Of a stretch of 64,000 nucleotides of DNA, positions 1-50,253 are shown piece after piece. The stretch covers positions 2,790,001-2,854,000 of the forward strand of contig NZ_CP041405.1 of the NCBI RefSeq assembly GCF_007066085.1, written 5' to 3'. The position numbers and the translations under genes were made by a program. Source of the DNA: Paenibacillus thiaminolyticus (lineage in GTDB: Bacteria > Bacillota > Bacilli > Paenibacillales > Paenibacillaceae). Numbering within the stretch: the first letter of the stretch is position 1; each line of letters starts with the position of its first letter. The notes under the pieces are model-generated. The model was not told the DNA's origin. It saw nothing but the letters and a program-made list of their open reading frames with translations, and did not search any database.

Positions 1-472
1 CGACGTTCGTGACGACATTTTGAATCGCGGCCACATCATCGGTCACCCGCTGGATGACCTCGCCGGAGCGGGCCGCAGTGAAGAAGCCGACCGATTGCAG
101 CTGCAGGTTACGGAACAGCCCCTGCCGCAGATCGGACATAATATGCTGGGTCACGAGCGTATTGAGATGGCTCTGCAGCACGCCGAGCATCCCGCTTGCG
201 ATCGGCAGCCCGACGAGCAGCGCGGCACAGGTCAGCAGCAGCGCCACATCCTTGTTCGGGATGGCGATGTCGATAATGCGCTGCATGACGAGCGGCGGCA
301 GCAGGCCGATAATGGCGCCGGAGAGCGCCAGAAAAACAATCCAGAAAAGCCGGAACAGATACGGTCGGAACAAGGCCCCGATCCGCTTGAAGGACACGTC
401 CTTCACCGAGACGCGCGGCTGCCCCTTCGCATCCCGAATGGGGACCGAGCGGTTGCCCCAGCCTTGGTACAT
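1..472 (-). CDS. ABC exporter (fused membrane and ATPase type), 5' part only
   Basis: The first 157 codons of a gene that runs off the left edge. The start ATG at 472 follows an AGGGGG ribosome site at about 7 bases. After a charged cytoplasmic leader of about 35 residues come the first two membrane helices of a type I exporter fold, then QHIMSDLRQGLF, FFTAARSGEVIQRVTDD and AAIQNVV, which are typical of the ABC_membrane domain of half-size multidrug or lipid exporters. The ATPase domain would lie outside the window. Substrate cannot be told. A TATAAT-like hexamer (TTATAATAG on the minus strand near 570) could be its -10 box, but I see no convincing -35. Family call is firm, function is not. 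Confidence 0.85.
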   Translation of the reverse strand, partial: MYQGWGNRSVPIRDAKGQPRVSVKDVSFKRIGALFRPYLFRLFWIVFLALSGAIIGLLPPLVMQRIIDIAIPNKDVALLLTCAALLVGLPIASGMLGVLQSHLNTLVTQHIMSDLRQGLFRNLQLQSVGFFTAARSGEVIQRVTDDVAAIQNVVTNV

Positions 473-654
473 TCAGATTCCCCCTCATCATCCGGCTTCT
501 CTCCCCATTTACGCCGATATATGTCTTGCCTTACACTGTCACCATTGTAGTACTGTGATGTTGATTCTATTATAATCGCAATTATGTCGTTAGGAAGACA
601 TTGTCTGGAGAAAAAACGGGGGTAATCCACGTGACTCGCTGCACAGCTCTCGAA

Positions 655-837
655 AATCCTGCGATAACACAGGATTCTTCACCGGCCCTCTCTCTGAAAA
701 AAGAAATCCTGCTAAAGTGCAGCAATTCGCGGCGCCATGGCTTGATATGGAGGGGAACCGGGTGAAAAGCTGCATTCTGGCAGGAATTTTGTTAAAAAGT
801 CGAAAAACCAAGAGAAAAACCTGCGCTTTTGCAGTAA
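655..837 (+). repeat. Four-palindrome intergenic element, copy A
   Basis: Four imperfect palindromes of the form CCTGC-N5-GCAGG, usually followed by AATT, begin near 658, 708, 769 and 819, so the spacing is 50, 61 and 50 bp. The same four-unit layout, in the same orientation, recurs at about 48251-48437 and 49828-50012. I do not recognise it as a named repeat family. Ends are approximate. Confidence 0.75.
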
Positions 838-846
838 TTAGGCCGC

Positions 847-990
847 AAGAGACACCGAGCAGTTCGTTTTCTGCGCTGATGAGATATTGGTCATAAGAGA
901 CAAAGAGCAGTTCGTTTTCTGCGCTGATGGGATATTGGTCATAAGAGACAAAGAGCAGTTCGTTCCCTGAGCTGATGGGATATTGGTCAT
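847..990. repeat. 48-bp tandem repeat, three copies
   Basis: Three consecutive 48-bp units start at 847, 895 and 943. Each begins AAGAGACA and carries GAGCAGTTCGTT and GATATTGGTCAT. They differ at only a few positions, and a fourth unit breaks off after AAGAGG at 991. The period is a multiple of three, but no frame looks translated. Confidence 0.9.
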
Positions 991-1252
991 AAGAGGCTAG
1001 GGGGATGGATCTATAGACTTATGTACTGCACGCCGCGTCGTCCCGCTCAACGACAGTATTGATTTATCAATTTGCCTGGGAACCTCGGCTTACCGGGTTT
1101 GCTCCGTACAGGTTTTGCATATACTTCTGCCCATTGCATCTTTCGTAGCAATTCTGCTCTATGCAGGCATTTCAAGTAAGGCTTTAGTATAAGCAGAACT
1201 TGCAGACTAAGGTGGACTTGCATGCTAAACAGGTTAAGTAGCTTCACAGACT

Positions 1253-4320: not shown

Positions 4321-4374
4321 TAACGAATATAACGTGCCATTGTGCACATCATGCAAATCCTCATCCTATCCGAG

Positions 4375-4553
4375 ATGAGGTAGAGGTTGCGGTTGTTAGT
4401 AGTAGCTCTGCGGAGGCGGGAAGCGCCGAGGAGGCAGAGGGAAAGGAACCACCGCCGAAGTCTGCGGGCATCTTCCAGCACGCGGGCTGGGGCTGTTGCC
4501 GAAAGGCGCAGCACTGTCATACGGGACTACCCGTTCCCGTATGGTGCGCTATC
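4375..4553 (+). promoter_or_regulatory. Lysine riboswitch (L-box)
   Basis: The aptamer begins with GAGGTAGAGG, which pairs with the closing CTATCTT near 4550 as helix P1. Between them are the conserved AGTAG, GGAAAGG, CGCCGAAG, GGGGCTGTTGCCG, CTGTCA and GTGCGCTATC blocks of the lysC/lysP-type L-box. The element lies directly upstream of an amino-acid permease and ahead of an intrinsic terminator, so bound lysine should stop transcription of the permease. The call is by motif order only; no covariance search was run. Confidence 0.9.
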
Positions 4554-4583
4554 TTTTAAGGAAGGGTATGATGGGGACGGTCT

Positions 4584-48047: not shown

Positions 48048-48137
48048 GGGCCCTTACACAGGGCTTATCCCATAGGCATTGAATCATGACGCAGGGCAAG
48101 ACGGGATAACCGGGAATGGAAAGGCGGAAAGACGGGT

Positions 48138-48243
48138 GCGGGACTAACGGCGGAACTTCTGCGGAACTAGCTGCGGAACTAACGGCGGAACTTGCCGCGG
48201 AACTAGCCTTGGTACTAGCCGCGGAACTTGCCGCGGAAGATGC
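48138..48243. repeat. 12-bp tandem repeat, about nine copies
   Basis: Units of GCGGAACTNNCC/GCGGAACTAACG repeat every 12 bases (one unit is 11). On the minus strand an open frame reads them as Ala/Ser-rich peptide, but it lacks a ribosome site and runs into serS, so it is not called as a gene. The tract lies eight bases left of element copy B. Confidence 0.85.
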
Positions 48244-48250
48244 ATGAGGC

Positions 48251-48437
48251 AATCCTGCATTGGTGCAGGAATTTACGCTATTTCAGCCGCTATCTAATGA
48301 GATTCCTGCAAAAGTACATCATTTTTCCCGATTTTTACTCTCGATCCATGGGGATGGTCTACATTCCTGCTATTGTGCAGGAATTTCGGTAACGGGGGGA
48401 GCTTCACAAGAGAAAACTGTAATTTTGCAGTTTTATG
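48251..48437 (+). repeat. Four-palindrome intergenic element, copy B
   Basis: Palindromic units begin near 48254, 48305, 48366 and 48416 (spacing 51, 61, 50). Units 1 and 3 are the most complete: CCTGCATTGGTGCAGGAATTT and CCTGCTATTGTGCAGGAATTT differ only in the loop. Same order and orientation as copies A and C. Confidence 0.8.
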
Positions 48438-48463: not shown

Positions 48464-48510
48464 GGGGCTGTCTCCCTATAGCTATAAACTACTTACCGGG
48501 AACAGCCCCC
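48464..48510. terminator. Hairpin downstream of the stalk-domain gene
   Basis: GGGGCTGT and ACAGCCCC pair across a 28-base loop that may extend the stem by CCC/GGG. No T-run on either strand, so only a possible terminator for the minus-strand gene at 48649. Confidence 0.35.
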
Positions 48511-49668: not shown

Positions 49669-49827
49669 CTTTCCTGCTCCTCTCGCATTCGATGTAGGTC
49701 CTGGTCGTGCTTCTATGTAAGGGATTCGCTATTCATCCAGCCGAACCCTTCTTCCAGATGCTGCAATCGGCGAAGTTTTGAAAAAAATGTCGAGGACCGG
49801 GGGGGAGTGGCGAACCAGACCGCGAAA

Positions 49828-50012
49828 AATACTGCAAAACTACATTAATTCTTCGAGCGGTCTTGGCGTGGAGAAGGAAGCCTGCAAATAGGCATCAATT
49901 TCGGCCCATCGCGGCGACTCCTTGGGAAATACAGGATAATTGATGTATTTTTGCAGGAATTCTATTGATTTTACGTGGTAACGAGATAAAATCCTGCACA
50001 TTTGCAGTTTTG
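49828..50012 (+). repeat. Four-palindrome intergenic element, copy C
   Basis: Units begin near 49831, 49881, 49942 and 49993 (spacing 50, 61, 51). Unit 3 (TTTTTGCAGGAATT) and unit 4 (ATCCTGCACATTTGCAGTTTT) are close to those of copies A and B; units 1 and 2 have lost some pairing. Same orientation as the other two. Confidence 0.75.
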
Positions 50013-50060: not shown

Positions 50061-50253
50061 CTAGCTTTCATTCGTGCAGCCATCTAGAAATAGTCTTCAT
50101 TCGTGCAACCTTCTAGAATAGCTTTCATGCGTGCAGCCTTCTAGAATAGCTTTCATGCGTGCAGCCAACTAGAATAATCTTCATTCGAGCGGCCGACCAG
50201 AATAGCTCTCATTATGACATGCAACGAGAATAGCCCTCATTCTTGCAACCAAC
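50061..50253. repeat. 28-bp tandem repeat, about seven copies
   Basis: Units of the type TAGAATAGCTTTCATGCGTG plus CAGCCTTC start at 50085, 50114, 50142, 50170, 50198 and 50226, with a partial first unit at 50061. Copies 3 and 4 are nearly identical; outer copies are decayed. It begins about 50 bases right of element copy C and ends just before lysE. Confidence 0.88.

Follow-up and report, generated by a model that had tools for sequence, protein, structure and literature searches.

An intergenic element of four palindromic sites at fixed spacing, dispersed in more than a hundred copies in Paenibacillus thiaminolyticus, is probably a platform for a DNA-binding protein

Introduction

The chromosome of Paenibacillus thiaminolyticus carries, between its genes, more than a hundred copies of a 186 bp element made of four 24 bp palindromic sites (consensus AATTNCTGCANNNNTGCAGNAATT), whose starts are 51, 61 and 50 bp apart when read in one orientation. 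Judging from its sequence, this element, called tetrad below, is probably a platform for four pairs of a DNA-binding protein. Comparison of copies shared between genomes supports the view that tetrads are kept by natural selection, the spacing being under selection while the sequence drifts. A frequent explanation of the palindromes dispersed in bacterial genomes is that they are hairpins copied by a RAYT. In vertically inherited tetrads, conservation bears on the spacing and the site, not on pairing, and the sequence of the sites shifts genome-wide in concert. This pattern points to a DNA-binding protein and offers a direct way to learn what such repeats do.

Results

The window, a stretch of 64,000 nucleotides (G000:C1:2790001-2854000) from the 6.61-Mb, one-contig genome G000, contains three tetrads:

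654..839, minus strand: tetrad A, sites at 654-677, 704-727, 765-788 and 816-839 (50-61-51 in the plus reading, i.e. 51-61-50 on the minus strand)
48250..48435, plus strand: tetrad B, sites at 48250-48273, 48301-48324, 48362-48385 and 48412-48435 (51-61-50)
49827..50012, minus strand: tetrad C, sites at 49827-49850, 49877-49900, 49938-49961 and 49989-50012

A preliminary description had reported three copies with four palindromes each, and all were found where it placed them, the best bounds being those given above. The 50/61/50-type spacing that it proposed holds in general, but tetrad A reads 50/61/51 once aligned as 24 bp sites. Its view that all copies share one orientation had to be given up: the rule that the 51 bp gap comes first, and the model R1 described below, both place B on the plus strand and A and C on the minus strand. 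As a tetrad is nearly mirror-symmetric, its orientation is easily misread. The lack of long identity among copies is real, since 21 non-redundant copies have only 36% of spacer letters in common (25% is expected from composition), versus 77% in the site cores. In spacer 1, identity among copies is 41%, which may reflect further signals, or common ancestry of the copies.

Using a matrix trained on 1.26 Mb of G000, window included, tetrads A, B and C scored 104, 100 and 106; when the window was shuffled 60 times with its dinucleotides kept, no score exceeded -41. A pattern for a single site, with up to 3 mismatches allowed, matched 12 times in the window, where 0.61 matches were expected, and 443 + 453 times across the whole of G000, versus 12 + 17 in the reversed control. 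R1, a sequence-only model built from 21 copies, recognised tetrad A (G000:2790654-2790838:-, E 1.7e-25), tetrad B (E 1.3e-31) and tetrad C (E 7.4e-29). The genome search proposed with the preliminary description gave at least 155 R1 matches in G000, some of them partial; tetrad counts obtained with R1 are lower bounds, since the number of candidates scored was 150 in the G000 search and 139 in that of the genus. Both a lack of further copies and a loss of the spacing were looked for and neither was found, so that the initial proposal stands on this point.

Two results give an unbiased view of the spacing, several other pattern searches having restricted it in advance. Distances between palindromes, counted with no spacing requirement, peaked at 50/51, 61, 111/112 and 162 bp in all four stretches sampled, although the window alone contributes only 2-3 counts at each peak. 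Then, in 1.264 Mb of G000, clusters of at least four sites, defined solely by a maximal gap of 75 bp from one site to the next, contained a 50/51 - 60..62 - 50/51 unit in 44 cases out of 44. Forty of them were exactly 51-61-50 in either orientation, and the middle gap was 62 bp in three clusters and 60 bp in one. These 44 sampled tetrads lie 26 on the plus and 18 on the minus strand. The gap-free alignment of the 21 copies is no evidence for a fixed length, because its copies were picked for a 61 bp middle gap (one further copy, which ran off its 20-kb piece, was dropped).

Sites are rarely found outside tetrads. At a score of 10, the site matrix detected 241 sites, versus 11 in the reversed sequence (1.26 Mb, the same DNA as used for training). 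At a score of 18 or more, 200 sites were found versus 1 in the reversed control; only 6 of the 200 were more than 180 bp from any other site, and among the remainder, several that lie outside tetrads adjoin IS110-type insertions. The 150 listed copies of G000 are spread uniformly along the chromosome (KS p 0.75), at one per roughly 30-40 kb. Their strands (88 plus, 62 minus) follow no clear rule with respect to the replichores. Tandem tetrads about 319 bp apart were seen at G000:C1:3824702, 3825021 and 3825339 (partial), and again at 3901003 and 3901322.

The intergenic bias expected from the preliminary description was confirmed with gene calls from a purpose-made codon-usage caller: among the 42 of the 44 tetrads with callable flanking genes, 41 overlap no gene, and one touches a doubtful 174-bp ORF by 37 bp, in DNA of 76-83% coding density. 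Flanking gene pairs were convergent in 13 cases, co-directional in 23 and divergent in 6. These data bear on the possibility that tetrads are operators of an ordinary transcription regulator. Their palindromic, homodimer-like sites and a genome-specific dialect (see below) would suit a regulon, and the available part of PMC4046817 describes Lrp-type factors as occupying several dimer sites at regular intervals and as able to wrap DNA. We nevertheless consider a regulon improbable, as only 6/42 pairs are divergent whereas divergent pairs account for 29% of the intergenic DNA in gaps of at least 250 bp, lone sites are few, and the genes beside tetrads showed no common class. For this last point, 675 ORFs near tetrads were clustered and 14 clusters were viewed, the widest of which look like common families. 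The broadest one has 9 members from 7 sources; its longest member resembles by eye a cupin/AraC-type protein, and others are ABC- and sugar-transport-like. A binder encoded beside the tetrads was dropped as a candidate, since the widest of the 14 clusters viewed look like common families.

The distribution of the element was then examined at the family level. A two-site pattern matched in 53 of 295 Paenibacillaceae genomes, belonging to 13 of 19 genera; some of the 53 have a single match, the match in G126 is a simple repeat, and four genomes have one control match each. Within the genus, R1 found matches in 13 of 19 genomes, with at least 139 in G000, G001, G007, G011 and G014 and 1-64 in the others. 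The remaining 6 of the 19 gave no R1 match, which means that the function of tetrads is dispensable. In public genomes, at least 112 loci have the two inner sites. Among the matches listed, with the family taken from the records, the outer sites were also present in 63 of 81 Paenibacillaceae loci versus 0 of 31 other loci; the 49 loci without all four sites are thus 18 from Paenibacillaceae and 31 from elsewhere. The 63 full tetrads, obtained by a search limited to gaps of 60-62 and 49-52 bp, come from 27 Paenibacillaceae genomes, two P. timonensis strains being counted apart. None of 19 viral loci with inner sites had the outer ones, and a viral origin was dropped. Outside the family but in the same order, G039 yielded 25 tetrads in 20 pieces picked for matches, 10 of them spaced 51-62-51 and the rest within one base of this at each gap. 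In G020, the tetrads at the listed places are spaced as in G000.

Selection was assessed on copies inherited at the same locus. Seven groups of orthologous tetrads, giving ten pairs among G000, G011 and G001, were collected in 400-454 kb of synteny. In the ten pairs, changes affected 60 of 720 positions in site cores, 40 of 239 in loops, 221 of 896 in spacers and 770 of 2745 in flanks. Site cores therefore change 3-fold less than spacers; all ten pairs showed a lower rate of change in the core than in the spacer (Fisher 8e-19 with columns pooled). When groups C and H are left out, changes amount to 31/504 in cores and 146/628 in spacers. Spacers diverge about as flanks do, but gain or lose few bases: indel events numbered 4 in cores, 1 in loops, 5 in spacers and 62 in flanks. 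Eight of the 10 events inside elements come from group C, in which the alignment suffers from IS110-type insertions; without this group, 2 events remain in about 1,490 element columns, versus 45 in about 2,180 flank columns, a flank count that is raised by minisatellites in some flanks. The G001 ortholog of tetrad A has no indel at all in the element, despite a 42% spacer difference. In group H (G000:C1:3128813 / G011:C1:6684073, apparently orthologous), flanks differ by 3.7% and spacers by 24%, possibly as a result of tetrad replacement or conversion.

The constraint on the sites of these seven tetrads shared between species is not explained by mobility alone. From the conserved spacing and drifting sequence, the preliminary description had put forward, as one option, selection on structure. 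Selection on the spacing is supported by the site and length constraint in orthologs; an RNA fold, one of the structures it had suggested, is not.

Indeed, no compensatory changes were detected for local pairing or for pairing of sites 1:4 or 2:3. Local hairpins in the G000 copies showed no covariation, 73.1% of positions being paired versus 73.7% after shuffling, with 422 of 500 shuffles at least equal (one arm-covariation test within G000 used 26 non-redundant copies out of 44). Long-range pairing of sites 1:4 and 2:3 gave no covariation either (70.9% versus 72.4% shuffled). The RNAalifold consensus was weak, at just -6.1 kcal/mol with a covariation term of +0.09, and Rfam at its gathering score gave no match at the elements. 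RNA folding, local or long-range, was dropped on the basis of the missing covariation and the consensus energy. More broadly, an array of RNA or DNA hairpins, acting as terminator, mRNA-stability element or cruciform, would account for the palindromic nature of each site, and also for IS110-ended insertions (see below) near the palindrome centre, as they occur in REPs in the available part of PMC1525189. Beyond the pairing data, the frozen spacer length has no evident role for independent hairpins, and such an array is very improbable in our eyes. Elsewhere in the window, the sole Rfam match is a lysine riboswitch at 4373-4559 (RF00168, 118.6 bits).

The two arms of a site are nevertheless related, in a way that was revealed by comparing genomes. 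In the 63 tetrads from 27 genomes, complementarity was scored at the five outer arm positions, which are untouched by the search pattern. It was found in 752 of 1,260 cells, versus 599 +/- 15 when arms were shuffled over all genomes (0 of 500 shuffles as high), and 747 +/- 13 when they were shuffled within each genome (182 of 500 as high). The same holds when the count is limited to sites 1 and 4, or to the 12 genomes with at least two tetrads. An eight-position version, with the two P. timonensis strains merged, gave 1285 versus 1158 +/- 17 (all genomes) and 1303 +/- 16 (within genome). Left and right arms thus covary between genomes, not within them: they match because both match the dialect of their genome, not each other. 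Such a per-genome dialect would fit a homodimer acting in trans, unlike a pairing constraint. A dialect could also arise from a founder copy in each genome; the far-diverged spacers argue against this.

Half-sites also obey a mirror grammar. In G039, they mirror about the centre of the element (1L=4R, 1R=4L, 2L=3R, 2R=3L), GATG being present at 2R in 18 of 25 tetrads and at 3L in 16 of 25. In G000, CTGC occupies 73 of 84 outward-facing half-sites and 32 of 84 inward-facing ones. The 63 other tetrads behave similarly at sites 1 and 4, with CTGC in 98/126 outward versus 60/126 inward half-sites (Fisher 1e-6). Their inner sites go in the same sense, outward over inward, which is partly set by the search pattern; as this pattern fixes CTGCA at 2L and CAG at 3R, the all-site figure of 221 versus 128 of 252 is partly built in. 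Spacers 1 and 3 of G039 have no inverted similarity, and an inverted duplication was dropped as the origin of the dyad. The mirrored half-sites make the whole element a dyad, though not an inverted duplication.

Mobility does contribute to the spread of tetrads. A young subfamily comprises 15 of the 44 sampled copies, and complete or partial CAGGCTGTTG/CAACAGCCTG ends are visible by eye in its flanks, at the left of 14/15 and at the right of 8/15. The sole full copy of an element with such ends is a 2,095-bp IS in G011 (L147:7864-9958; G011:C1:6387864-6389958), encoding a 416-aa IS110 transposase (PF01548 + PF02371), for which reason an IS1182-like label for the CAGGCTGTTG ends was rejected. 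The 3' non-coding end of this IS contains three tetrad sites, plus an apparent damaged fourth. A 476-bp element of G000 corresponds to its first 185 and last 293 bp, and shorter elements of 154-701 bp with the same ends exist in G000, G011 and G001. The young subfamily is therefore carried by an IS110 element and by deletion derivatives of it, and part of the spread is hitch-hiking.

Tetrads are also targets of such elements. Those with CAGGCTGTTG-type ends are inserted in palindromes of other tetrads, near the palindrome centre. In G011, the 2,095-bp IS lies in the first site of tetrad A, and the remainder of the tetrad was not found on the far side of the insertion. Tetrad C is orthologous in G011, G007 and G001, and CAGGCTGTTG-ended insertions interrupt it in G011 and G001. 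In the window itself, no IS110-type ends were seen by eye around A or C in the printed flanks.

Could tetrads be nothing but IS110 passengers, spread by these elements and their deletion derivatives without a function of their own? The young subfamily, the tetrad sites inside the G011 IS and the G000 element matching both its ends speak for it. But the 29 other tetrads of the 44, which are very diverse, have no paired IS110-type ends in the flanks inspected by eye (300 bp left, 200 bp right; in one of them the fourth site is interrupted by an element of this kind). Tetrads with orthologs are also under constraint, and tetrads with other arm dialects exist in 27 genomes. Moreover, insertion of IS110-ended elements into tetrad palindromes means that the tetrads were at those places earlier. 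We hold a pure passenger status to be scarcely credible.

Tetrad B is contained in a unit of another type:

48060..48109, plus strand: left end of the B-type unit (CCCATAGGCATTGAATCATGACGCAGGGCAAGACGGGA)
48464..48509, plus strand: right end of the B-type unit, a hairpin (GGGGCTGTCTCCC ... GGGAACAGCCCC), terminator-like by eye

The unit runs from near CCCATAGGCATTG to near GGGAACAGCCCC and encloses the tetrad and its minisatellite; its ends are MITE-like, not IS110-type. The left-end query gave 6 matches in the fetched DNA, 4 of which (window copy included) have a right end no more than 900 bp away. At the same intergenic place, tetrad B is absent in G011, G007, G001 and G009. The old non-autonomous mobile element evoked in the preliminary description is thus partly recovered, in the IS110-borne subfamily and in the MITE-ended unit of B; mobility by itself does not account for the seven shared tetrads, constrained at their sites.

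The main rival of a docking array is a REPIN-like, semi-selfish and non-autonomous element, whose palindromes would be recognised by a transposase or recombinase that acts in trans and is itself inherited vertically; the tetrad would then be a synaptic structure, and its copies long-lived. The uneven copy number across the genus (R1 gives from 0 to at least 139) and the 53/295 family genomes with a pattern match agree with it, as do the dyad symmetry and the lineage dialects, the MITE-like ends of B-type units and the absence of B from orthologous places. On the other hand, PF01797 (Y1, which includes RAYTs) is matched in 6 of 13 R1-positive versus 3 of 6 R1-negative genomes of the genus, and G000, G001, G004, G005 and G018 have tetrads without it. 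Site conservation in vertically inherited copies is unexpected for dead transposon copies, and tetrads as a whole showed no shared end or target duplication. We regard this scenario as unlikely, yet well ahead of the other alternatives. A RAYT/Y1 partner in particular was dropped, with no PF01797 match in G000 and no tracking of tetrads in the genus. G014, an assembly of many contigs, has 32 PF01797 matches, many of them fragmentary or at contig ends, compared to at most 8 in each of the 18 other genomes of the genus.

Discussion

We favour, as the rather probable reading, that a tetrad is a DNA-level docking array for homodimers of one unlinked DNA-binding protein, forming a two-fold-symmetric complex, and that these complexes are chromosome-structuring or insulating nodes. 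Four homodimers of a single sequence-specific protein would bind the four 24 bp palindromes. With sites 5, 6 and 5 turns apart at about 10.2 bp per turn, the dimers would all occupy the same side of the helix, and could assemble cooperatively into one two-fold-symmetric nucleoprotein complex over about 186 bp. The strong half-sites (CTGC) would face outward, with weaker variants (CTGT, GATG) toward the dyad. More than a hundred complexes, placed between genes, may then act as structuring or insulating nodes, which is the least certain step. Tetrads persist at shared loci, are dispensable and are evenly spread, which suggests such a chromosome-organising or insulating role.

The arithmetic of the spacing is as follows: 51+61+50 makes 162 bp, or 16 turns at 10.1 bp, and the 164 bp of G039 make 16 turns at 10.25 bp, in both cases as 5-6-5 turns. 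Phasing requires about 10.2, not 10.5 bp per turn, and a helical repeat below 10.5 would suggest wrapped or supercoiled DNA. No spacing variants shifted by 10-11 bp were found among tetrads, so that a constraint on phase cannot be distinguished from one on length alone. DNA-binding phasing is the best fit among the options initially offered, the phase itself being unproved. A wider proposal, that over a hundred four-dimer, two-fold-symmetric sites of the same plan per chromosome constitute a chromatin-like code, with a coevolving dialect in each genome, organising intergenic DNA in Paenibacillaceae via a protein family new to that role, is put forward tentatively, as a possibility that may well turn out wrong.

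How do tetrads compare with known systems? IS110/IS1111 insertion sequences insert site-specifically. Here, insertion is into palindromes, and one such element carries a tetrad as cargo; 29/44 sampled tetrads have no IS110 ends around them in the flanks inspected. The composition and spacing of BIMEs and of RIB/RIP elements vary, whereas the tetrad has one fixed, four-site, dyad-symmetric plan. It shares with them an organisation as intergenic arrays of palindromic units, theirs being bound by gyrase or IHF, both of which bind enterobacterial palindromic units according to the available part of PMC2267715.

As described in the accessible parts of PMC8049555 and PMC3733652, REPs are high-copy intergenic palindromes and REPINs are two inverted palindromes around a diverse spacer; the accessible part of PMC1525189 reports IS insertion into REP palindromes, IS110 foremost. 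Tetrads resemble these RAYT-associated systems as high-copy intergenic palindromes targeted by IS110. They differ by their four sites, frozen spacing, absence of hairpin covariation, scarcity of lone sites and absence of PF01797 in G000. The GTAG/CGTC tag of REP families, as given in that part of PMC3733652, is absent from the AATTNCTGCANNNNTGCAGNAATT consensus, judged by reading the matrix. Ss-LrpB, in the available part of PMC4046817, binds several regularly spaced palindromes, one dimer each, cooperatively and with possible wrapping of the DNA. Tetrads also have several regularly spaced palindromes, and the site TTGCAAAATTTGCAA resembles CTGCANNNNTGCAG; however, Ss-LrpB has three juxtaposed sites at its own promoter, whereas tetrads are more than a hundred and dispersed. 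No recognisable description of the tetrad was found in open-licence PMC papers, and its novelty is therefore provisional.

Finally, each of the three tetrads of the window has a minisatellite less than 50 bp away, with unlike unit lengths:

846..996: minisatellite beside tetrad A, 48 bp x 3.1, 7 bp away
48137..48239 (left bound approximate): minisatellite beside tetrad B, inside the B-type unit, 12 bp x 8.5 (or 36 bp x 2.8), 11 bp away
50061..50230 (right bound approximate): minisatellite beside tetrad C, 28 bp x 5-7, 49 bp away

Palindrome-induced slippage, or a common tolerance of junk DNA, are our guesses for this association. It is also seen in the sample of 44: outside the young subfamily, a minisatellite lies at most 200 bp away from 17 of 29 tetrads, versus 156 of 1,180 random intergenic windows (13%), the repeat units varying from place to place.
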